Source of the DNA: a virus
Virus record (IMG/VR): IMGVR_UViG_3300046167_000320
Span: 1-29,633 of that record
DNA length: 29,633 nucleotides
Direction: 5' to 3' (one strand)
How positions within the stretch are numbered: position 1 is the stretch's first letter; each line of letters begins with the position of its first letter. The notes under the pieces are model-generated. The model had not been told where the DNA came from. It was given only the letters and a program-made list of their open reading frames with translations, and did not search any database. The position numbers and the translations under genes were made by a program. Of this stretch, positions 1 through 16,481 are shown piece after piece.

Positions 1-1
1 T

Positions 2-292
2 GAAGCCTTTGTAGCTCTTCGGGATGAGCCCTTTCCCTTTGCTCGCTTCACCGAGTCAAACATCCGTAGCAACTGGAAGTTTGTCAGGGAGGCACTCAAC
101 GAAACCGACCCAGAGTTTGTGTTCTACCTTACTCGACACACATGTGCTTCCCGTCTGGTGCAGCGCAAGGTGGAACTCTACACCGTCAAGGAGTGGATGG
201 GTCACAAGACTTACGAGATGACCATGCGATATGCTAAATTATCTCCCAGAAATATGCTTGACGCGGTGGAGGCACTGCAACAAGCTCTCTAA
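2..292 (+). CDS. int: Phage tyrosine-recombinase integrase, C-terminal part (5' end cut by window)
   Basis: The last 96 residues of a tyrosine integrase are visible; the reading frame runs into the window edge, so the start is missing. Counting from the first complete codon, box II is present as TRHTCASRLV (R45, H46; the position of the usual HxxR histidine is a tyrosine), box III is WMGHK (G67, H68), and the nucleophile is Y77 in TMRYAKLSP. This arrangement is diagnostic of phage integrases that catalyse attP x attB recombination by a 3'-phosphotyrosine intermediate. About 1.25 kb downstream lies a tRNA-derived core flanked by repeats that fits its attachment site. Integrase upstream of a T7-like RNA polymerase is known from temperate-type marine T7-like podoviruses. 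Confidence 0.93.
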   Translation, partial: EAFVALRDEPFPFARFTESNIRSNWKFVREALNETDPEFVFYLTRHTCASRLVQRKVELYTVKEWMGHKTYEMTMRYAKLSPRNMLDAVEALQQAL

Positions 293-322: not shown

Positions 323-805
323 ATGAAATACAAACTACTACTGGCTCTCGTGGCCCTCTCAAACGTGGCATCCGCTTCCGCGTTCAACATTAACTCGGGT
401 GTGCTATCCAACACTCCCGACGTAGCCTTCAACGGTGGTTCCTCCATGGTTCGCTTTACTGATGGTAACTTCTTTAGGATGCAAGGCTTCGGCGACCGCG
501 TAGAGCTGCAGAGCTTATCTACTATGGACTGGTCGTTCGACGTTAAGGTTATCTATCCTAGCATGTTGCCGCTCGCGGACATTCACAACATCACGGAAAG
601 CGACATCAAGACTATCGTGGCCACCGCGAGGCACGACAACATGACTCAGTATTCTATTGGCGTCATTAAGTATCTAAAGAACGGACGCTTGCGTCTCCGC
701 GTTGTTTCCGCTCACGTCATACCAGAGCCAGAGACCTTTGCTTTAATCGCAGGACTGGTAGCTTTCACAGCTATCGCCCTAAAACGTCGCAGAGTTGCGG
801 CTTAA
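323..805 (+). CDS. Secreted PEP-CTERM (exosortase-sorted) protein encoded by the phage
   Basis: 160 residues. Residues 1-20 form a Sec signal peptide (K2/K4, hydrophobic LLLALVAL core, ASASA cleavage site). The C-terminus is a complete PEP-CTERM sorting signal: P134-E135-P136, a hydrophobic helix about 139-153, then K154-R155-R156-R157. In established systems exosortase recognises the PEP motif in the inner membrane, cuts near it, and the protein goes to the cell surface or exopolysaccharide matrix. The central ~110 residues are not a family I recognise and look beta-rich. The gene lies between int and attP, a lysogenic-conversion position. The start is the ATG after CCTTACT; no Shine-Dalgarno is visible. 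No exosortase gene is in the window, so the host machinery would be needed. Topology and sorting motif are clear; function is unknown. Confidence 0.9.
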   Translation: MKYKLLLALVALSNVASASAFNINSGVLSNTPDVAFNGGSSMVRFTDGNFFRMQGFGDRVELQSLSTMDWSFDVKVIYPSMLPLADIHNITESDIKTIVATARHDNMTQYSIGVIKYLKNGRLRLRVVSAHVIPEPETFALIAGLVAFTAIALKRRRVAA

Positions 806-1541: not shown

Positions 1542-1605
1542 TGGTGCCCAAGGAGAGAATCGAACTCTCACGCCATTGCTGGCGGGGGATTTTGAATCCA
1601 CGGGA
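1542..1605 (-). other. Candidate attP core: 3' part of a tRNA-Leu(CAA) gene without its 5' half
   Basis: Read on the minus strand, from about 1601 down to 1542, the sequence folds as the 3' part of a tRNA-Leu. It has an anticodon loop TTCAAAA (CAA anticodon at 1594-1592), a stem with one T-C mismatch, a long variable arm CGCCA/TGGCG with loop GCAA, a perfect T-arm (GAGAG, TTCGATT, CTCTC), the acceptor 3' strand CTTGGGC and an encoded ACCA. The matching 5' acceptor strand and D-arm are absent upstream, so this is not a working tRNA gene. It is the kind of fragment that restores a host tRNA after integration. Integrase-bearing T7-like cyanophages are known to carry a tRNA-Leu fragment as attP. 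Confidence 0.85.
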
Positions 1606-1670: not shown

Positions 1671-1710
1671 GGTGACAACGCTCTAGCGGCGGTGACAAAC
1701 TGGTGACAAA
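1671..1710 (+). repeat. Right cluster of direct repeats, candidate integrase arm-type sites (P' arm)
   Basis: GGTGACAAC at 1671 and GGTGACAAA at 1691 and 1702, spaced 20 and 11 bp apart. This reverses the left cluster's 11/19 spacing while keeping the same sequence orientation. The cluster begins about 65 bp from the tRNA fragment and ends 10 bp before the RNA polymerase ATG, so integrase bound here could also affect expression of the polymerase gene (inference). Confidence 0.72.
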
Positions 1711-1720
1711 TTCTTCAACT

Positions 1721-2809
1721 ATGGACACACTGACACAAGACGAACTGAACAACGATATGACCACTGTAGGTGTAGGCCGCTACCGTAATAAGGTAGAGGG
1801 AGCCCAAGCCAGAGGCATGGAGTCTGAAACGTCCTATGGTCAGCGACTCATACGCGGAGCTTTGCCAGCTTATATCAAAGCTATCGATGAAGTGAAAGAC
1901 AAATGGCGGGGCTACAAGAATAACGCTCAGTGGCAGCTAGACCTCCTAGAAATATCCTCGGACAAGATTGGGTTCCTAGTAATCCGCACTGTCCTCGACC
2001 AACTAACTAAGAACTCTAAGATGACGGCGTTGTGCACCAAGGTGGGCAATGTTCTCGATTACCAGAGACGCTCGGAGTTCCTTGTTCGTAACAACCCCAA
2101 AGGTGAAGGGATTGTTCTAGGGGCTACCCGTAAGCGCGGCTGGCAAGCGACCAAGAACCACATCCGTGTTAGCACTAAGCACGAGGTAGAGAAGGGCTTG
2201 ATGGAAGATACCCATTCTTGGACACGCCGAGACATAGCCACATCTGGATTGAACCTTGTAGAGCTCCTTAGGGACGTCACAGGGATCATTGAGTATCGCT
2301 TCATTACAGATACGGGACGCAGGAACCCTACACGCTACGTCACAGCCTCCTCAGAGACCTTAAAGTGGATTGATGAGTTCAACTATCACAAGGAAATCAT
2401 AAGCCCCTTCTGGCTCCCTACAGTGGATACACCAATGGAGTGGAAGAACGTATGGGAGGGAGGATATAAGACAGATGATACCTCTCTCCCTAAGCTTCCT
2501 TTCATTAAGTCAACCAACATGGACTTACTCCGAGGCATCGAGGGTAAACTCGACGAGCCCATGGAGGCTTGTAATCTTATCCAGCAAACACCTTGGAGGA
2601 TTAACGAGGACGTTCTCCAGACCATGCAGTGGGCTTGGAAGAACTCAGTAAAGGTAGGAGGACTACCCAGCCGTGATGACGAGGTGATGCCCGACATCCC
2701 CGATGACTTCCACGAAAACAAAAAGAGCAACCTTCAGTGGCGCACGATGGCCTCTGGTGTTCACAAGCGTAACATGGGGACGCGCTCAAGACGCCTACTG
2801 GTAGCCTAA
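1721..2809 (+). CDS. T7-like single-subunit RNA polymerase, N-terminal segment
   Basis: The N-terminal and thumb/palm-entry part of a T7 gp1-type DNA-dependent RNA polymerase, which transcribes the middle and late phage genes. The ATG at 1721 is preferred over an in-frame GTG at 1703 that lies inside the attP repeat. The segment ends with the conserved VHKRN block that precedes the DxRGR region. The frame then breaks at 2804-2807: dropping one C of GTAGCCTAAG lets it continue as VAKVLYLAEKLKVSQ. The repaired gene (1721-4141, three +1 breaks) would give about 805 residues, against 883 in T7. It directly follows the attP arm repeats. Confidence 0.9.
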   Translation: MDTLTQDELNNDMTTVGVGRYRNKVEGAQARGMESETSYGQRLIRGALPAYIKAIDEVKDKWRGYKNNAQWQLDLLEISSDKIGFLVIRTVLDQLTKNSKMTALCTKVGNVLDYQRRSEFLVRNNPKGEGIVLGATRKRGWQATKNHIRVSTKHEVEKGLMEDTHSWTRRDIATSGLNLVELLRDVTGIIEYRFITDTGRRNPTRYVTASSETLKWIDEFNYHKEIISPFWLPTVDTPMEWKNVWEGGYKTDDTSLPKLPFIKSTNMDLLRGIEGKLDEPMEACNLIQQTPWRINEDVLQTMQWAWKNSVKVGGLPSRDDEVMPDIPDDFHENKKSNLQWRTMASGVHKRNMGTRSRRLLVA

Positions 2810-2847
2810 GGTGCTTTACTTAGCAGAGAAGCTTAAGGTTAGTCAGG

Positions 2848-3852
2848 TTCTTCTATCCGTCACATTGTGACTTCCGAGGTCGGGTTTATAACATCCCCGC
2901 TTTCCTAGGTATCCAAGGCCCTGACATGTGTCGTGGGTTACTTAAGTTTGCTAGACCTCAACGTATCAAGACAGCAACAGACCGCAAGTGGTTAGGCATT
3001 CAAGGTGCTAACACTTGGGGCTACGATAAAGTCACACTCGACGAACGCGCTGAGTGGGCTGAGAACTTTTCCAAGGACGCTATCCGCATCGCAGCTAACC
3101 CTACCAAGGAGTTACTATGGACAGAAGCGGGTGACCCTTGGCAATTCCTTGCGTGGTGCTTTGAATGGGCAACGCTACAGAACACGGGTAAGCTAGATAC
3201 CTTTCTCCCAGTGAATATGGATGCCACCAATAACGGCCTTCAGATTCTCTCTATGCTTACCCGTGACCCTTACGGGATGACTGCTACGAATGTGTTACCT
3301 ACTGACACACCAGCAGACATCTACGGAGTGGTCGCAAAGCAAGCGGAGATCATCCTGAAGCAACAAGCAAGCGAGGGGGACGCTATTGCGAACGCTTGGG
3401 TAAACTTTGGGATCGACCGTAAGACAACCAAGCGCCCCGTCATGTGCTACTCGTATGGACTGACTGAATACAGCAATCGTCTATACATCACCGAGTGGTA
3501 TGAAGACCAGATACACGGCGAAGGACGGACAAGACCTTTTGACGATAAAGAGAAGTATCTAGCCGTTCACATTTTGGCGAAGGCGGTATGGAAAGGCATC
3601 GAGAGCGTCCTAGAGAAACCAAAGGAATGTATGAAGTGGTTCCAAGACTGTGCTTCGATACTTACCGAGGCTGAGTTGCCCGTGTCTTGGGTGACTCCTA
3701 GTGGCTTCCCTGTGCACCAAGAGTATTTCAACTTCACAAGTAAGAACATCAAGACTTGGATTAGCGGAACAGCTACTCACATTCGTTTCCGTGAGAACGA
3801 CGATAAGCTTTCCAAGGTTCGCCAACGCAACGGAGTGAGCCCTAACTTTGTT
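2848..3852 (+). CDS. T7-like RNA polymerase, central catalytic segment
   Basis: Same polymerase in a second frame. Coding resumes as FFYPSHCDFRGRVYN (the YPxxxDxRGRxY motif) just after a GG at 2846-2847 that needs one base removed. The segment holds the palm motif with catalytic Asp in VNMDATNNGLQ (T7 D537 equivalent) and the fingers O-helix region KTTKRPVMCYSYG (T7 K631/Y639 region). It also carries a TPSGFPVHQEY block like T7 TPDGFPVWQEY. An ATG-initiated reading would begin only at 2926, inside the conserved core, so this is not a separate gene. It ends at GVSPNFV, where CC at 3853-3854 breaks the frame again. Confidence 0.88.
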
Positions 3853-3853
3853 C

Positions 3854-4141
3854 CACTCACTAGATGCTGCGGCTCTTCACAAGACAGTCATCAAAGCAAA
3901 CGAGGAGGAAGGTATTTATGACTTTGCATTTATCCATGACAGCTACGGAACCCACGCCACAGGATGTGAAGTTCTAAGTAAATGTTTAAGAGATGTATTT
4001 ATTTCTACTTTTAGTGTTGACCTCTTACGGGATTGGAAACATCAATTAGAACAGCAGTCGGGATTAGAGCTTCCCGAGCCGCCAGAATATGGCACTGCTG
4101 ACATCTCCAAAATCAAAGATAGCACATATTTCTTCAGTTAG
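3854..4141 (+). CDS. T7-like RNA polymerase, C-terminal segment
   Basis: The last ~95 residues of the polymerase, back in the starting frame after the third +1 break. It opens as HSLDAAALHKTV, matching T7 HSQDGSHLRKTV, and contains the second catalytic aspartate in FIHDSYGTHA (T7 D812 in HDSFGT). The end is short, DSTYFFS, comparable to the FAFA foot of T7 RNAP that reaches into the active site. An ATG at 3848 exists but is internal. A 59-bp gap separates it from the SSB gene. Confidence 0.88.
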   Translation, partial: HSLDAAALHKTVIKANEEEGIYDFAFIHDSYGTHATGCEVLSKCLRDVFISTFSVDLLRDWKHQLEQQSGLELPEPPEYGTADISKIKDSTYFFS

Positions 4142-4803: not shown

Positions 4804-5149
4804 GTTTCGCTCGAAGTTCGAAGAGACAGTAGCCTCCGCCTTAAATGCGGCGGGGGTTACCCACTCTTACGAGTCGATGAAACTAGATTACACGAAGGTC
4901 TGCAAATACACGCCAGACTTCGTTTTAGACAATGGAATAATACTGGAGGTAAAGGGCTATTGGATAGCGTCAGACCGAACCAAACACCTGCGAGTAAGGG
5001 AAGCACACCCCGACCTCGACATCCGCTTTGTATTCCAACGAGCATCAAACACACTAAGCAAAAAGAGCAAGACCACCTACGGGGACTGGTGCGACAAACA
5101 CGGGTTCCTCTGGTGCGAGAAAAAGCTCCCACACGAATGGACGATTTAA
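4772..5149 (+). CDS. T7 gp3-like endonuclease I (Holliday-junction resolvase)
   Basis: 125 residues, close in length to T7 endonuclease I (149). The PD-(D/E)XK nuclease residues are in place: E17/E18 in KFEET, D49 in YTPDF, E59 and K61 in LEVKG. They are followed by the family blocks KHLRVREAHPDLDIR and YGDWCDKHG. The enzyme cuts four-way and branched DNA and helps break down host DNA and resolve phage concatemers. The basic N-terminus (KRKRPTRRSK) fits DNA binding. It overlaps the SSB gene by 32 bp and the primase-helicase start by 13 bp, so the three are probably translated as one unit. Confidence 0.92.
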   Translation: MKRKRPTRRSKFRSKFEETVASALNAAGVTHSYESMKLDYTKVCKYTPDFVLDNGIILEVKGYWIASDRTKHLRVREAHPDLDIRFVFQRASNTLSKKSKTTYGDWCDKHGFLWCEKKLPHEWTI

Positions 5150-6258
5150 CGGCGATAGCCACACACCAACCTTGCGATGACTGCGGAAGCAGCGACGCTC
5201 TCACACACAACTCTGACGGAAGCACCAAGTGCTACTCCTGCGGTATCTTTACACCGAACAGAGACAAACAAGACACAACTACACAACACACAAAAATGGA
5301 AAATGTATCACCACTAGGATTCGTAAACGGAAAGTTCATGGAGATTGCCCCACGGGGTATCAATAAAGACACATGCGTAAAGTATGGGTATCAAATCGGG
5401 GAGCTTAACGGTAAGCCCTGTCACGTCGCAAACTACCGCAACCTAGATGGCACTCAGGTAGCTCAGAAGTATCGCTTTGCGGACAAGAGCTTTCACTGCA
5501 ATGGCTCACCTAACTATTTCTTCGGTCAGAACCTCTGGCCTAATGGAGGTAAGAAGCTGGTCATCACTGAAGGTGAGATTGATTGCCTTACTGTTAGCCA
5601 ACTCCAAGGCAACAAGTGGCCAGTCGTATCGCTACCCAGTGGCGCTCAGTCAGCCAAGACAATCTTTAAGAAGCAACTAGAATGGCTATCCTCGTGGGAT
5701 GAAGTCATCGTTATGTTTGATGAAGACAAGGCGGGACGCGAAGCTGCTGAGAGTGTAGCCCACATCCTTCCTGCTGGCACTTGTAAGATCGCTCGGTTGT
5801 CCATGAAAGACCCGAACGAAATGCTTCTAGCTAACAAAGGAGAAGAAGTAATCCAAGCTTTCTGGAACGCTAAGGTATGGCGTCCTGATGACATCGTGGA
5901 TGGCTCTGAGCTTTATGAGCGTCTCACTGTCCCTAAAGAAAACGACAGCATCCCTTATCCTTACTATGGACTTAACTCCCTCACTCACGGTCTCCGCAAA
6001 GGCGAGATTGTTACCTTCTGTGCTGGCTCTGGCATCGGCAAGTCTGCTGTTTGTAAAGAGATTGCGCTACACGTTCTCAAGACTACTGATCGTAAGCTCG
6101 GCTATATTGCCTTGGAAGAGTCTATCGAGCGTACAGCTAACGGTATTATCGGTCTGGAAATGTCTAAGCCGCTACACCTAGAGCCCTTTGAGCCAGACGC
6201 TAAATACAACGAGGCTTACAAAAAGACAGTCGGCTCTGGTCGCTTCTACCTTGTATGA
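5137..6258 (+). CDS. T7 gp4-like primase-helicase, primase domain and helicase N-part
   Basis: The ATG at 5137 is chosen because it gives the zinc-binding module directly: C13-x2-C16 and C32-x2-C35, as in T7 gp4A. The TOPRIM primase motifs follow: ITEGEIDCLTV and VIVMFDEDKAGREAAE. The helicase Walker A is GSGIGKSA, followed by LEESIERTANGIIGL. An internal ATG at 5296 (M54) lies just after the zinc module, where T7 starts the helicase-only gp4B, and carries the same ACAACACACAAAA leader as other genes here. The frame breaks at about 6249-6252; removing one C or T gives FYLYDHW, matching T7 FHLYDSF. The repaired protein (5137-6763) is about 541 residues (T7: 566). Confidence 0.92.
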   Translation: MDDLTAIATHQPCDDCGSSDALTHNSDGSTKCYSCGIFTPNRDKQDTTTQHTKMENVSPLGFVNGKFMEIAPRGINKDTCVKYGYQIGELNGKPCHVANYRNLDGTQVAQKYRFADKSFHCNGSPNYFFGQNLWPNGGKKLVITEGEIDCLTVSQLQGNKWPVVSLPSGAQSAKTIFKKQLEWLSSWDEVIVMFDEDKAGREAAESVAHILPAGTCKIARLSMKDPNEMLLANKGEEVIQAFWNAKVWRPDDIVDGSELYERLTVPKENDSIPYPYYGLNSLTHGLRKGEIVTFCAGSGIGKSAVCKEIALHVLKTTDRKLGYIALEESIERTANGIIGLEMSKPLHLEPFEPDAKYNEAYKKTVGSGRFYLV

Positions 6259-6763
6259 CCACTGGGGTTCCCTAGATAGCGACAACCTACTAGGACACAT
6301 CCGCTACATGGCTAAGGCTATGGATGTAGACTACGTGGTTCTTGATCACCTCTCTATCATCGTATCTGGTATGGGTGATGGCGACGAGCGTCGTATGATC
6401 GACAACACAATGACCAAGCTACGTGCTCTTGTAGAAGAGACTAAGATTGGTGTTGTTCTTGTTAGTCACCTCAAGCGTCCTGAAGGTAAGGGACACGAGG
6501 AAGGTGCAGCGACATCCCTAGCACAACTACGAGGCTCTGCCGCTATCGCTCAGTTGTCCGATATGTGCATCGGCTTAGAGCGTAACCAGCAAGACATCGA
6601 GAACAAGAACAGGACAACACTGCGTGTCCTTAAGAACCGATTCAGCGGTGAGACAGGCGTAGCTTGTAACCTGCTTTACGATAAAGAGACCTGCCGTCTC
6701 TCAGAGGATACTAACCCTCTCTTTGAGGACACCGACGATGTCACAGCAGGCTTCGGACACTAA
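6254..6763 (+). CDS. T7 gp4-like primase-helicase, C-terminal helicase segment
   Basis: Continuation of the helicase in the next frame. It carries Walker B (YVVLDHLSIIV), the GDGDERRMIDNTMTKLR block, motif H4 region VVLVSHLKRP with KGHEEG, and LRGSAAIAQLSD followed by IGLERNQQ, all directly alignable with T7 gp4. The acidic C-terminal tail (LFEDTDDVTAGFGH) corresponds to the tail T7 helicase uses to dock DNA polymerase. An ATG at 6188 in this frame is upstream of the true join and is not a real start. Confidence 0.9.
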   Translation, partial: YDHWGSLDSDNLLGHIRYMAKAMDVDYVVLDHLSIIVSGMGDGDERRMIDNTMTKLRALVEETKIGVVLVSHLKRPEGKGHEEGAATSLAQLRGSAAIAQLSDMCIGLERNQQDIENKNRTTLRVLKNRFSGETGVACNLLYDKETCRLSEDTNPLFEDTDDVTAGFGH

Positions 6764-7312: not shown

Positions 7313-7597
7313 ATGAAAACAATAGCTTACTTCGACATAGAAACCAACGGCATCACAGACTGGTCAACTCTAAGTGACCTTAAAGATCTGCACTGCCTTG
7401 TAGTAATTGACCAGAACGGAACGGGAGCTTACCGAGCAGACAGCATCCAACAAGGATTAGACCGTCTCTCACAAGCTGACCATATCGTAGGACACAACAG
7501 CATCGGCTTTGACGCTATCGCCCTTTGGAAGCTCTACGGCTACCGTCACGCTGGTGTATTAGACTCCGCCGTGATTGCTAGGTTGATGTATCCCTGA
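7313..7597 (+). CDS. T7 gp5-like DNA polymerase, 3'-5' exonuclease N-terminal segment
   Basis: N-terminal proofreading domain of a family A phage DNA polymerase. Exo I is YFDIETN (D8, E10) and Exo II is VGHNSIGFD. The start ATG is preceded by AAATAACACACA, the recurring leader of this genome. The frame ends at MYP; removing one C from the CCC at 7592-7594 gives RLMYPDVRSDDF and continues into the rest of the polymerase. The repaired gene (7313-9110) gives about 598 residues versus 704 in T7, shorter mainly in the exonuclease part. Confidence 0.9.
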   Translation: MKTIAYFDIETNGITDWSTLSDLKDLHCLVVIDQNGTGAYRADSIQQGLDRLSQADHIVGHNSIGFDAIALWKLYGYRHAGVLDSAVIARLMYP

Positions 7598-9110
7598 CGT
7601 TCGTAGCGATGACTTCAAACGTGAAGGTTTCCCAAAGCAACTCATCGGTTCCCACAGCTTAAAGGCTTGGGGCTATCGCATTGGGAACAACAAGAGCGAC
7701 CACGGGGAAACCGAAGACTGGTCTCAGTGGTCTCAAGAGATGGAAGACTACTGCGTTCAAGATGTGGAGGTCACCAAGTCTCTCTATGAGTTCTTTCTAA
7801 AGAAGGGATTAGGTAGCCTCCAGCAAGCGTGTGACCTAGAGCATGCCTTTGCTAAAGCTATCCGTATCCAAGAGATGAACGGGTTTCCTTTTGACGTTAA
7901 AGCAGCAGAAGAACTTACAGCTACCCTTATGGGTCGCCGTGCTGCTCTTGACGTAGAATTGCGTGAGTTATTCACGCCTACTGAAGAAGTCACCAAGAGT
8001 AACTGGTGGCTCGCTCCTGATGGCACAAAGTCCCGCACCAAGAAAGCCTTGGTCGAGAAGGGCTACAAAGCTAAGGAGATAACCAAGGGAGAGCCTGTTG
8101 TTAAGCTCATCCCGTTCAACCCCAACAGTCGTGACCAGATCGCCGAACGACTAATGGCTAATGGCTGGAAGCCTAGCTCCTACGAGGGCAAACGACCAGC
8201 AATCAACGAGGCGGTGCTCAAGGACATCGGAACACCCCAATCCGAAAAGCTCCTTGAGTACCTCCTCGTTACCAAGCGTCTCGGTCAAGTGGCTGAGGGT
8301 AAGCAAGCGTGGCTAAAGCTAGAGCGCAACGGACGTATCCACGGTTCTGTGAATACCAACGGAGCTGTCTCTGGGCGATGCACTCACCGAAATCCGAACG
8401 TGGCTCAAGTGCCATCCACTCGTGCGCCTTATGGTGGCGAGTGTCGCTCTTGCTTCACAGCTCCAGAGGGCAAGGTGCTTGTAGGTGCTGATGCTAGTGG
8501 CCTAGAGTTGCGCTGTCTTGCTCACTACCTAGCCCTGTTCGGAGATAAGGAATACGCGAAGACTATCCTCGAAGGAGATATTCACACGGCTAACCAAAAG
8601 GCCGCTGGGTTGCCCACTCGGGATGCCGCAAAAACATTTGTGTATGCCACTCTCTACGGCGCTGGAGATGCTAAGATTGGTGCTATTGTTGGTGGAGGAG
8701 CTAAAGAGGGCAAAAAGATTAAAGCTACCTTCATGAAGAATGTTCCTGCGTTAAAGCGTCTCAATGACGGCGTGGCTAATGCGCTAGAAACTAAAGGAAT
8801 GCTGCGTGGCTTAGATGGTCGGCCCTTACCCTGTCGCTCACCACACTCAGCGCTCAACCTCCTACTTCAATCTGCAGGTGCTATCATAATGAAGCAAGCC
8901 CTCGTGGAGTTTACCAAGATGGCTAAGTTCCCCTATGAGAATCACGCCAATGTTCATGACGAGACGCAATTTAGTTGTGCTCCAGAACACGCTGATGAGC
9001 TTGGTAGGACGTTCTGTAATGCCCTAGGAAAAGCAGGGCAAGTTCTCAATCTCCAGTGCCGTATTGATGGCGAGTTCTCTGTAGGAGCAAATTGGAAATC
9101 TACCCACTAA
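7593..9110 (+). CDS. T7 gp5-like DNA polymerase, exo III and polymerase domain
   Basis: Continues with IGSHSLKAWGYR, Exo III (YCVQDVEVTK), then the polymerase palm and fingers. Motif A is VGADASGLELRCLAHYLA, the O-helix is TRDAAKTFVYATLYGAG, and motif C is NVHDETQ. The O-helix position equivalent to E. coli Pol I 762 (T7 Y526) is tyrosine. Upstream of motif A is a GAVSGRCTHRNPNVAQVPS block typical of the family. The host thioredoxin-binding loop of T7 cannot be confirmed by eye. An ATG at 7740 is internal, not a start. It is followed 3 bp later by an endonuclease VII-like ORF. Confidence 0.93.
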   Translation, partial: PDVRSDDFKREGFPKQLIGSHSLKAWGYRIGNNKSDHGETEDWSQWSQEMEDYCVQDVEVTKSLYEFFLKKGLGSLQQACDLEHAFAKAIRIQEMNGFPFDVKAAEELTATLMGRRAALDVELRELFTPTEEVTKSNWWLAPDGTKSRTKKALVEKGYKAKEITKGEPVVKLIPFNPNSRDQIAERLMANGWKPSSYEGKRPAINEAVLKDIGTPQSEKLLEYLLVTKRLGQVAEGKQAWLKLERNGRIHGSVNTNGAVSGRCTHRNPNVAQVPSTRAPYGGECRSCFTAPEGKVLVGADASGLELRCLAHYLALFGDKEYAKTILEGDIHTANQKAAGLPTRDAAKTFVYATLYGAGDAKIGAIVGGGAKEGKKIKATFMKNVPALKRLNDGVANALETKGMLRGLDGRPLPCRSPHSALNLLLQSAGAIIMKQALVEFTKMAKFPYENHANVHDETQFSCAPEHADELGRTFCNALGKAGQVLNLQCRIDGEFSVGANWKSTH

Positions 9111-11192: not shown

Positions 11193-12194
11193 ATGGCAGA
11201 CCGAACCCTCACGATTAACCACGCAGATGGAGGCAGTGAAACTTATACCCTAAAGACCGAGGACGTCTTGGGGGTTCGGAGTATGTCGGTAGATGGAGAG
11301 ACGGTCACGATCGACCGCACGGCTCCAGACCTCGTTCGCACTATTATAGCAGACGGACAGACCATTACCATTGATACCACTAGGGAAGGTGTTCGCACTC
11401 TCACAGTGGATGGCACAGAGATCACCATCGATCGCACCGAAGAGGCTAACCTCGAGAGCTTCCTTCAGCAATACGTTACACCCGAAATTGCTATTTCCCT
11501 TCGCGATCTAGCGAGCACGTCTGGCAATACTACCGTAATTCGCGCTAGGCGTGGTGATAATAACCTTGAGGCGGACTTTACGGCCAACGAGGTAGCAGAC
11601 GGAACGCTTGTTTCGTGGGGAGGCGTTGGTAATGATGTATTTGTCCCTATAATTTACGACCAAAGCATTAACAGCAACCACGTAACTCAAACTGATCCGC
11701 TTAAACAGCGTAAGATTATTGATGCTGGGGTATTGGTTACCGAAGGTGGGTTGCCTGCTGTTCAAGGTAATATACACAATATGGTGATGCCCCCTATAGA
11801 GCTCATAGGGGACTTTACGTGTATGCTATTAGCAAACATCGGGTTTAATCACGCGATACTCGGAGCAGTTGGCGGTTCACCTAGATTTCGCTTCGTTCAA
11901 TCTGTTAAATTCGAGCTAGTTGACAACGCATCTCGTGAAATTAACTTCACTCCAACGACAGCCTCCGCTGCTTACAACTTTGATGGGACTCGAAAGCTTG
12001 TTGCTATTTACCGTGATGGCGCGGGTGCCACAACATTGAACATCAATAGTGAGGACACGTTAGACTCTCCGCTATCTGAAATGTCTGGAACTATTACTTT
12101 CAGTAGGCTCTTTGTCCGACAAAACACATTAAACCCATTTACAGGTAATTTCCAAGAACTAGTTTTGTGGAACCGAGACATCAGAAATGATTGA
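11193..12194 (+). CDS. Tail spike/fibre-like protein: N-terminal repeats plus lectin-like domain
   Basis: 333 residues in this frame. Residues 28-82 are three near-identical ~20-residue beta repeats (core VRTLTVDGTEITIDRT), with a degenerate copy at 4-13. Residues about 100-330 resemble a concanavalin A/LamG-like jelly roll seen in phage adhesins: SLRDLASTS, ARRGDNNLEADF, YDQSINSNHVTQ, and a C-terminal FQELVLWNRD. The frame stops two codons after DIR. Removing one A from the AAA at 12185-12187 joins it to the following esterase without losing a residue, so both are probably one ~602-residue protein. Codons look more A/T-rich than in neighbouring portal and scaffold. The placement, between gp7.3-like and portal, is not where T7 keeps its fibre gene. 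Confidence 0.72.
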   Translation: MADRTLTINHADGGSETYTLKTEDVLGVRSMSVDGETVTIDRTAPDLVRTIIADGQTITIDTTREGVRTLTVDGTEITIDRTEEANLESFLQQYVTPEIAISLRDLASTSGNTTVIRARRGDNNLEADFTANEVADGTLVSWGGVGNDVFVPIIYDQSINSNHVTQTDPLKQRKIIDAGVLVTEGGLPAVQGNIHNMVMPPIELIGDFTCMLLANIGFNHAILGAVGGSPRFRFVQSVKFELVDNASREINFTPTTASAAYNFDGTRKLVAIYRDGAGATTLNINSEDTLDSPLSEMSGTITFSRLFVRQNTLNPFTGNFQELVLWNRDIRND

Positions 12195-13002
12195 TAACGT
12201 ATATAGCTACTACTCAACCCCATCAGAATTTTACTTTATGGCGGGACAGTCAAATATGGCAGGCCGTGATGTTGATGGGACAAGCTTAACATCTCGCACT
12301 AACGATGCTGATATTTATGAATACAACAGGGACGCTAGCTGGAAGAGATCATTCTCTACAATATACCCAGAGGGAGGTGCGATAGGAAACTTCGGGCCAA
12401 ATGTAGGCTTACTGAGAACTCGATATAACCAAACAACAAACAGGCTTATCAGCTTTCGTTATGCTGTAGGTGGCCATTGTTTACCAGCTTTCCTTCCAGA
12501 ATCAGAAAGACTGATTGACCCGCAGTCGGCGCTTCCCTCAAGCAACGCTGATCGTTCTCAAGATATGATTGATTTGTTTGCTGAGAAATCATTTCTGGAA
12601 TACAGACAAAATTTTAACAAACCCGTTAAGACGTTCTTAATTTGGTACCAAGGCTCAGAAGATTCTAAATACAATGGGGAGCAGTCCTACGCCCATGACC
12701 TTTCGGGTTTATATAATTCTCATCTCGTCAAACTACTAGATTACATAAAAGCCAATGTGCCTTTGTTTGATGGAGAAATTACCATTATACGCTCTCCCGA
12801 CTGGCAGGCTAATAACCCAACCGTAAAAGCCTATCAGGAAGTTGTACGCACAGCACAGGTGAATGTTGGTAATAGCTACCCCAAGGCACAGTGGATAACA
12901 TCCGACGTCAATCAAGGTGTAACAGCTACGTGGGAAGATAACTCCCACATTGATGCGGCCTCTCAAGAGCGGTTAGGCATTGACCTAGCTGCAGTTATAT
13001 AA
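12187..13002 (+). CDS. SGNH-type carbohydrate esterase domain (sialate O-acetylesterase-like)
   Basis: 271 residues if started at the ATG at 12187, though it is more likely the C-terminal half of the preceding lectin protein. Block I is FMAGQSNMAGR with nucleophile S22. A central IWYQGSED block matches the SASA family WxQGExD. The catalytic Asp/His pair is D251 and H254 in WEDNSHIDAASQERLG. Members remove O-acetyl groups from sugars. In a phage adhesin this would deacetylate host capsule, exopolysaccharide or LPS during adsorption (inference). A terminator follows about 140 bp downstream. Confidence 0.85.
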   Translation: MIDNVYSYYSTPSEFYFMAGQSNMAGRDVDGTSLTSRTNDADIYEYNRDASWKRSFSTIYPEGGAIGNFGPNVGLLRTRYNQTTNRLISFRYAVGGHCLPAFLPESERLIDPQSALPSSNADRSQDMIDLFAEKSFLEYRQNFNKPVKTFLIWYQGSEDSKYNGEQSYAHDLSGLYNSHLVKLLDYIKANVPLFDGEITIIRSPDWQANNPTVKAYQEVVRTAQVNVGNSYPKAQWITSDVNQGVTATWEDNSHIDAASQERLGIDLAAVI

Positions 13003-15580: not shown

Positions 15581-15985
15581 ATGCCTATTGAACTTATAGC
15601 AATGCTCGGCGGCGGTGTGTCAGGCTTTGTAATGAAAATGATTGCCGCACAAGGAGAAGCTCAGACTCGCAACTTCGAGATGCTCCTTCAAAAACAAGTC
15701 ACAGCAGATGAATCAGCAGATAAAGCAGAAGCTCGTGGTGGCGTATGGATTAGGCGTGTGTTCGTCTTCTTTATACTGTTTGCTGTTATCGTAGCTCCAT
15801 TCCTACTTTCCCTCGTAGGCACTCCCGTAACTGTTGAGAAAGAAGGACTCGGTGGTATCTTTTCACTCATCGGTCTCGGAGCTGGTAGCTGGGAATCCCT
15901 GAACGGTTTCGTCCTGTTACCAGAAGTCCGCCAAGCAATGCTTGCTATCGTAGGCTTCTACTTCGGCTCTTCGCAGGTTCGCTAA
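15581..15985 (+). CDS. Small membrane protein, holin candidate
   Basis: 134 residues. Short N-terminal hydrophobic/Gly-rich segment (IELIAMLGGGVSGFVMKMIA), a charged middle, then a strong membrane helix about residues 56-80 (RRVFVFFILFAVIVAPFLLS) and a second hydrophobic C-terminal region about 90-130. Two or three membrane segments plus the muralytic gene immediately after it (TTG 1 bp past its stop) suggest a holin-endolysin pair. Similar proteins occur as uncharacterised membrane proteins in marine podoviruses, so holin is inference from context. Confidence 0.6.
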   Translation: MPIELIAMLGGGVSGFVMKMIAAQGEAQTRNFEMLLQKQVTADESADKAEARGGVWIRRVFVFFILFAVIVAPFLLSLVGTPVTVEKEGLGGIFSLIGLGAGSWESLNGFVLLPEVRQAMLAIVGFYFGSSQVR

Positions 15986-15986
15986 C

Positions 15987-16481
15987 TTGATCCCTAAAAT
16001 TGCAGTCCTGTTGTTGCTAGTTGCTGGGTGTTGTCCAGCCACTCCTTCAATAACCCTTAAAGACTTCGTTAAGTTAATCCCTCAGTGGGAAGTCTACCCT
16101 GATAGTCCTCACGATGTAGTGGGTGACAACGGGGCTGCTTACGGTCACTACCAGATCCACAAGGTAATGGTAGATGATTACAACCGTATAACGGGTTCTA
16201 AAGCCTCCCATACGGACGTATTTGACCCAGCGTTCGGCCAGAGGGTCGCGTATACTGTCCTGAGTCACTACGCAAAGCACATTAAAGCCTCTGGGGTTAC
16301 ACCTACGGCTGACCACATGCTGTTCATCTGGAATGGTGGAGGTGGTGCATGGAAACGCGTAGAGAATCCCCGAGCTGACCAGAAGCAAATCAATCTTAAT
16401 ATCTACAGAAGTAGAGCAACCCTAATAATAAATAACTATCTAAATGAAAAGAAAAGGCGTCAGTCTCCGCAAGGAGCATAA
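15987..16481 (+). CDS. Muralytic enzyme candidate with lipoprotein-type signal (endolysin / transglycosylase-like)
   Basis: 164 residues from TTG at 15987, the only start that includes the hydrophobic leader. Residues 4-15 form a signal with a lipobox-like LVAG-C15. The body resembles the lysozyme-like/lytic transglycosylase fold: an acidic residue in IPQWEVYPD (candidate catalytic Glu), GAAYGHYQIH (G-x-x-Q motif), VFDPAFGQRVAYTVLSHY (family DP-x-N-x-x-x-A-like stretch) and FIWNGGGGAWKR (NGG near the end). It would cleave peptidoglycan for lysis after export. A lipid-anchored endolysin is unusual; a simple cleavable signal is possible. It overlaps the next gene by 38 bp. Confidence 0.68.
   Translation: MIPKIAVLLLLVAGCCPATPSITLKDFVKLIPQWEVYPDSPHDVVGDNGAAYGHYQIHKVMVDDYNRITGSKASHTDVFDPAFGQRVAYTVLSHYAKHIKASGVTPTADHMLFIWNGGGGAWKRVENPRADQKQINLNIYRSRATLIINNYLNEKKRRQSPQGA

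Follow-up and report, generated by a model that had tools for sequence, protein, structure and literature searches.

A PEP-CTERM-like secreted protein gene exchanged among unrelated phages with probable hosts in marine Verrucomicrobiota

The locus examined here raises the question of why a phage should encode a secreted protein that ends like a substrate of bacterial exosortase; namely, whether it is a recently captured host gene or an accessory function that phages maintain and share. The DNA analysed (the window) is the 29,633-nucleotide stretch comprising positions 1 to 29,633 of IMG/VR virus record IMGVR_UViG_3300046167_000320. Its features are listed in Table 1.

Table 1. Features of the window discussed in the text
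Feature	Position	Strand	Basis
Tyrosine integrase, C-terminal part, cut by the window start	1..292	+	PF00589
PEP-CTERM-type secreted protein, 160 aa	323..805	+	ORF and translation, PF07589 (below cut-off)
Predicted signal peptide, residues 1–20, ASASA before F21	323..382	+	Sequence features
Mature beta domain, residues 21–133 (113 residues)	383..721	+	AlphaFold2, dN/dS
PEP-CTERM-like tail: PEP 134–136, hydrophobic helix, KRRR 154–157	722..793	+	PF07589 below cut-off; helix in model
Small gene, directly after int in the cassette-less sister phage L024	842..1024	+	
Putative attP core resembling the 3' half of a tRNA-Leu gene	1542..1595	-	Also in L005 and L024
Membrane protein phrog_38283, host marker	15581..15985	+	Isolate relatives

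Architecture of the protein

The open reading frame at 323–805, noticed in a first-pass annotation made from the sequence alone, is real. Residues 1–20 (MKYKLLLALVALSNVASASA) resemble a Sec signal peptide, with lysines, a hydrophobic core (mean Kyte–Doolittle value of 2.38 over 12 residues) and an AxA motif before F21. At the other end, the tail (IPEPETFALIAGLLA..KRR) carries a C-terminal PEP motif, a hydrophobic helix and a basic cluster: the stretch after P134-E135-P136 reaches a maximum Kyte–Doolittle value of 2.54 over 15 residues and the cluster occupies K154–R157. Sequence features and the AlphaFold2 model are both compatible with a putative N-terminal signal peptide and no other transmembrane segment.

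PF07589 is the sole Pfam match of the protein (15.3 bits against a cut-off of 20.7, residues 133–156), TIGR02595 scores 14.1 bits against 16, and the best NCBIfam matches are PEP-CTERM models, every one scoring under its curated cut-off; in the tail, at residues 132–157, floc PepA ranks first among the NCBIfam matches (E = 0.002), with a score far short of its cut-off. PEP-CTERM models are also the best matches for most members of the family. As the curated cut-offs of TIGR02595 and PF07589 are not reached, we do not claim a formal PEP-CTERM assignment. The cut-off is the detection threshold of a 24-residue model and not a biological feature, and models of this length commonly give low scores; for this reason the match was checked in three further ways, and it rests on position, a shuffle test and conservation. 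A six-frame search of whole records with PF07589 found the family gene as the only match in 6 of the 7 carrier records (E between 3.5e-5 and 8e-4, all short of the cut-off); in the seventh, L004, an assembly gap interrupts the gene before its C-terminus. The signature arose in 15 of 200,000 shuffles of the protein and occurs in 1 of the 134 frames of the window and in 7 of 2,753 distinct frames from all fetched loci, six of the seven being members of this gene family. Among the ten readable tails, seven have PEP (window, L005, L006, L007, G002, L030 and L081) and three divergent copies have PEL or PEI in its place (L034, L079 and L084), and the helix and basic cluster are retained in all ten. 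What is conserved in the tail is its architecture.

The first-pass annotation had described a complete exosortase sorting signal and proposed a comparison with PEP-CTERM models. As anatomy the description stands, with signal peptide, PEP, helix and KRRR in the expected places and in a combination that is rare by chance; as an HMM assignment it does not, because these models are the best Pfam and NCBIfam matches but all fall short of their curated cut-offs. The likeness to PEP-CTERM substrates of exosortase (EpsH) lies in the signal peptide and, at the very end of the chain, in the PEP, hydrophobic helix and basic cluster, together with a mature part that has no known homology (definition in PMC1569441). 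Unlike EpsH substrates, the family is phage-encoded, is swapped among unrelated backbones, scores below the cut-offs and includes the three PEL or PEI alleles.

For the mature domain, no match was found in Pfam, PHROGs or PADLOC, the last of which returned nothing meaningful. AlphaFold2 with eight homologues predicts a beta domain followed by a C-terminal helix at residues 136–159 (mean pLDDT of 82.8, with block means of 91–97 over residues 31–130); an earlier model was poor (pLDDT of 61). In fold comparison, every PDB match had an E of 0.1 or above and VIA Z stayed under 5; the resemblances seen were weak PAS-like arrangements of sheets. The viral-library comparison covered the earlier model. 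The structure prediction that the first-pass annotation had suggested therefore yields a confident beta domain, but no convincing PDB relative.

Distribution across phage backbones

Homologues with 36–80% identity are present in 11 other IMG/VR contigs, and the carriers fall into five backbones: temperate T7-like phages (the window and its relatives L004, L005, L030 and L034); a 34-kb phage with TerL, Erf and DnaB (G001/G002); a second DnaB phage (L006); a primase/helicase phage (L007 and L084); and a T4-like phage with gp32-like and helicase-loader homologues (L079 and L081). The G002 and L006 backbones are distinct and may be distantly related, because their DnaB and helicase-loader proteins are about 40% identical. 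Between the window and L006, L007 or G002 the PEP gene is the only alignable DNA, and an all-against-all comparison of proteins singles it out as the sole gene to be well conserved throughout the five backbones. The L006 copy extends to the contig end and was compared in separate pairwise alignments; the L084 gene is intact and overlapped by a longer frame. No homologue was found in isolate phages (queried with the window, L081 and L034 proteins), in plasmids (query P0002) or, among cellular genomes, in GTDB (one profile-guided scan with narrow patterns).

The view that the gene sits in a temperate T7-like phage between int and an att site is borne out by the integrase upstream (PF00589 at 53–244, 39.6 bits, over cut-off; stop codon at 290–292) and the tRNA-Leu-like core downstream. 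Among viral contigs, the att tRNA-Leu pattern is found only in L005 and in the empty-site sister phage L024, and none was found in GTDB genomes. The suggested tie to lysogeny fared less well: the gene also occurs in T4-like and DnaB contigs in which no integrase was detected, so that lysogeny seems not to be required, with the proviso that these contigs may be incomplete. Uncultured phage_MedDCM-OCT-S45-C18 (Autographiviridae, Ayaqvirus, AP013544) shares with the window the gene order int, small genes and RNA polymerase (head–tail protein 68.7% identical, RNA polymerase 41%), but its slot between int and the RNA polymerase gene has other small genes instead of the PEP gene.

A single-gene cassette with exchanged alleles

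The sister phage L024 matches the window at 97.5% identity before the locus and 95.8% after it, and differs by a clean single-gene indel that removes the PEP gene, which is therefore dispensable. Among phages with RNA polymerases at least 75% identical to that of L005, the int–RNA polymerase slot contains the gene in the window, L004, L005, L030 and L034 and is without it in L024, L028, L029 and L035; in phages with RNA polymerases more distant from that of L005, the gene was not found. It thus behaves as a single-gene accessory cassette that phages gain and lose. The protein of L005 shares 93% identity with its L006 and L007 counterparts but 80% with that of the window, although L005 and the window have 90% identity in backbone DNA. 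Over 4 kb of upstream DNA, L007 and L084 share 97% identity, yet the proteins encoded at the same place are only 38% identical. Alleles therefore move between backbones, and one has replaced the other between L007 and L084. In the mature domain, dN/dS is about 0.02–0.09 where dS is not saturated, ratios that are rough, with several dS values above 1. Purifying selection on the gene is strong in more than one phage group. It lies before the RNA polymerase gene in T7-like phages or in replication-gene regions, and the G002 copy is within the replication block, on the strand opposite to the structural genes.

Probable hosts

Isolate-phage relatives of the phrog_38283 membrane protein occur only in Verrucomicrobia phage P8625, which infects Puniceicoccales strain IMCC8625, and in Phage C75C1, which, judged by terminase, is also nearest to G002. 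In each of the five backbones, carriers have at least one accessory protein in common with P8625. Shine–Dalgarno-like motifs precede 1 of 22 hand-picked starts in the window, compared with 7 of 12 in LUZ100, and the window genes start after A/T-rich leaders; in neither the window nor G002 do the motifs exceed background, and the same holds for P8625 (8 of 52, against 0.155 expected). Some Verrucomicrobia are listed as Shine–Dalgarno-scarce (PMC10783764), the phylum bears PEP-CTERM proteins with EpsH (PMC1569441, PMC4960237), and Coraliomargarita is related to IMCC8625 (PMC4642752); the genome papers of Coraliomargarita and Lacunisphaera mention neither PEP-CTERM nor exosortase, and no exosortase (EpsH) was found in the phage record. 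Gene sharing with P8625, the absence of Shine–Dalgarno motifs and the presence of PEP-CTERM proteins with EpsH in the phylum together make marine Verrucomicrobiota of a Puniceicoccales-like kind the likely, not proven, hosts. The first-pass expectation of an exosortase-bearing Gram-negative host accords with this probable phylum.

Proposed function and alternatives

The best explanation, to which we assign a probability of roughly 0.45, is that exosortase sorts the protein to the surface, where it interferes with competing phages. According to this model, an accessory cassette would circulate among unrelated phages whose hosts are marine Verrucomicrobiota of a Puniceicoccales-like kind. In infected or lysogenic cells, the protein would be exported through the host Sec system and lose its signal peptide, after which the C-terminal helix would keep the exported protein in the inner membrane. 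Host exosortase would recognize the PEP region and trim the tail, and the small beta domain would be passed to the cell surface or exopolysaccharide, where it would obstruct the adsorption or entry of competing phages. Export and handling by exosortase are probable, judging from what is established for the PEP-CTERM family; interference with other phages is put forward more tentatively. It is suggested by a gene that is dispensable yet common to unrelated phages of probably one host group, that precedes the RNA polymerase gene or sits close to replication genes, and that is replaced by strongly diverged alleles in near-identical phages. Against the explanation as a whole stand the sub-cut-off HMM scores, PEL or PEI in three divergent alleles and an endolysin gene that adjoins the PEP gene in two backbones. 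The role would be akin to that of lipid-anchored exclusion proteins such as Ltp, with the exosortase tail as the address. Ltp, a surface-anchored exclusion protein spread as a moron (PMC3952083), is likewise small and exported, and is a moron of temperate (Streptococcus) phages; it differs in its lipid anchor and Gram-positive host, and no similarity to known exclusion proteins, Ltp included, was detected through the family libraries Pfam, PHROGs and PADLOC.

Several other readings share parts of this evidence. The sorted protein could be an accessory of lysis or release that, together with the endolysin, loosens a surface layer or keeps progeny off debris, as its position directly downstream of a SleB-like hydrolase gene in L007, L084, L079 and L081 (two backbones) would suggest; the T7-like copies, however, occupy the int–RNA polymerase slot, a long way from the lysis-like genes at 15581–16481, the G002 copy lies in the replication block as described above, and L024 does without the gene. 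We consider this role unlikely. About as unlikely is a plain membrane-anchored periplasmic effector, in which the C-terminal helix and arginines would serve as an anchor only, exosortase would not recognize the PEP, and the beta domain would act in the periplasm, perhaps on the DNA of incoming phages or on the channel through which it enters. Sub-threshold PEP-CTERM scores and the PEL and PEI alleles would be expected of such a protein, whereas the retention of PEP in 7 of 10 readable tails, of the helix and basic cluster in all of them, and the rank of PEP-CTERM models as best matches for most members speak against it.

Improbable, in our judgement, is a matrix protein that sticks infected or lysogenic cells together in the manner of host PEP-CTERM floc proteins: the PepA match and the link between PEP-CTERM proteins and aggregation in work cited in PMC12642866 point that way, but PepA similarity spans the tail alone and does not extend to the mature domain, and no clear benefit of aggregation explains the strong divergence of alleles. 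Capture of a host PEP-CTERM gene, a possibility raised in the first-pass annotation, would suit a probable host phylum in which such proteins are typical. Whether neutral or recent, capture with no role in the phage is highly improbable: dN/dS is far below 1, the gene is spread over five backbones (the two grounds on which we rejected neutral capture), and the one narrow-pattern scan gave no cellular homologue.

If interference through an exosortase-sorted protein is the correct reading, phages exploit a sorting system of bacteria that is still poorly understood, exosortase in Verrucomicrobiota becomes open to genetic study through this gene, and the tail could flag viral contigs that infect exosortase-bearing hosts. 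In a broader and somewhat more speculative form, unrelated Verrucomicrobiota phages from T7-like to T4-like may draw on a common, exchangeable pool of proteins addressed to exosortase, the strongly diverged alleles of which would alter the surface of the infected cell to the detriment of competitors; a stronger and less likely version has the PEL and PEI alleles as pseudo-substrates that block exosortase. Full-text searches of open-access papers, judged mostly by titles and abstracts, gave no description of a phage-encoded exosortase substrate. Two pairs could serve as natural experiments for testing phage–phage exclusion: L007/L084, with different alleles, and window/L024, with and without the gene. 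Beyond the first-pass annotation, the analysis adds a shared, allele-swapping family in five phage types; its function and its use of exosortase are what we infer.

Neighbouring genes and other observations

The SleB-like cell-wall hydrolase encoded directly upstream of the PEP gene in two backbones is a secreted protein (L007 5130–5549, L084 5513–5932, L079 5425–5883 and L081 5369–5827). Beside the PEP gene in three carriers are genes for YDANGNxTYYEDSDGYW-like repeat proteins, often in several tandem copies (L005 4287–4799, L006 2622–4463 and L007 6198–6919); P8625_42 also belongs to this family.

The RNA polymerase, primase/helicase and DNA polymerase frames of the window are split (1703–4141, 4960–6763 and 7313–9110), whereas L005 has RNA polymerase and helicase in one frame each; the splits look like assembly frameshift errors, and the open reading frame of the PEP gene is unaffected. 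At 478–552 of L005, ARAGORN calls a tRNA whose anticodon, TTA, would pair with a stop codon; the call may be false. The window frame at 12187–13002, which starts MIDNVYSYYSTPSEFYFMAGQSNMAGRDVDG, bears a putative resemblance to sialate O-acetylesterase (SASA) domains and is possibly part of a tail spike.
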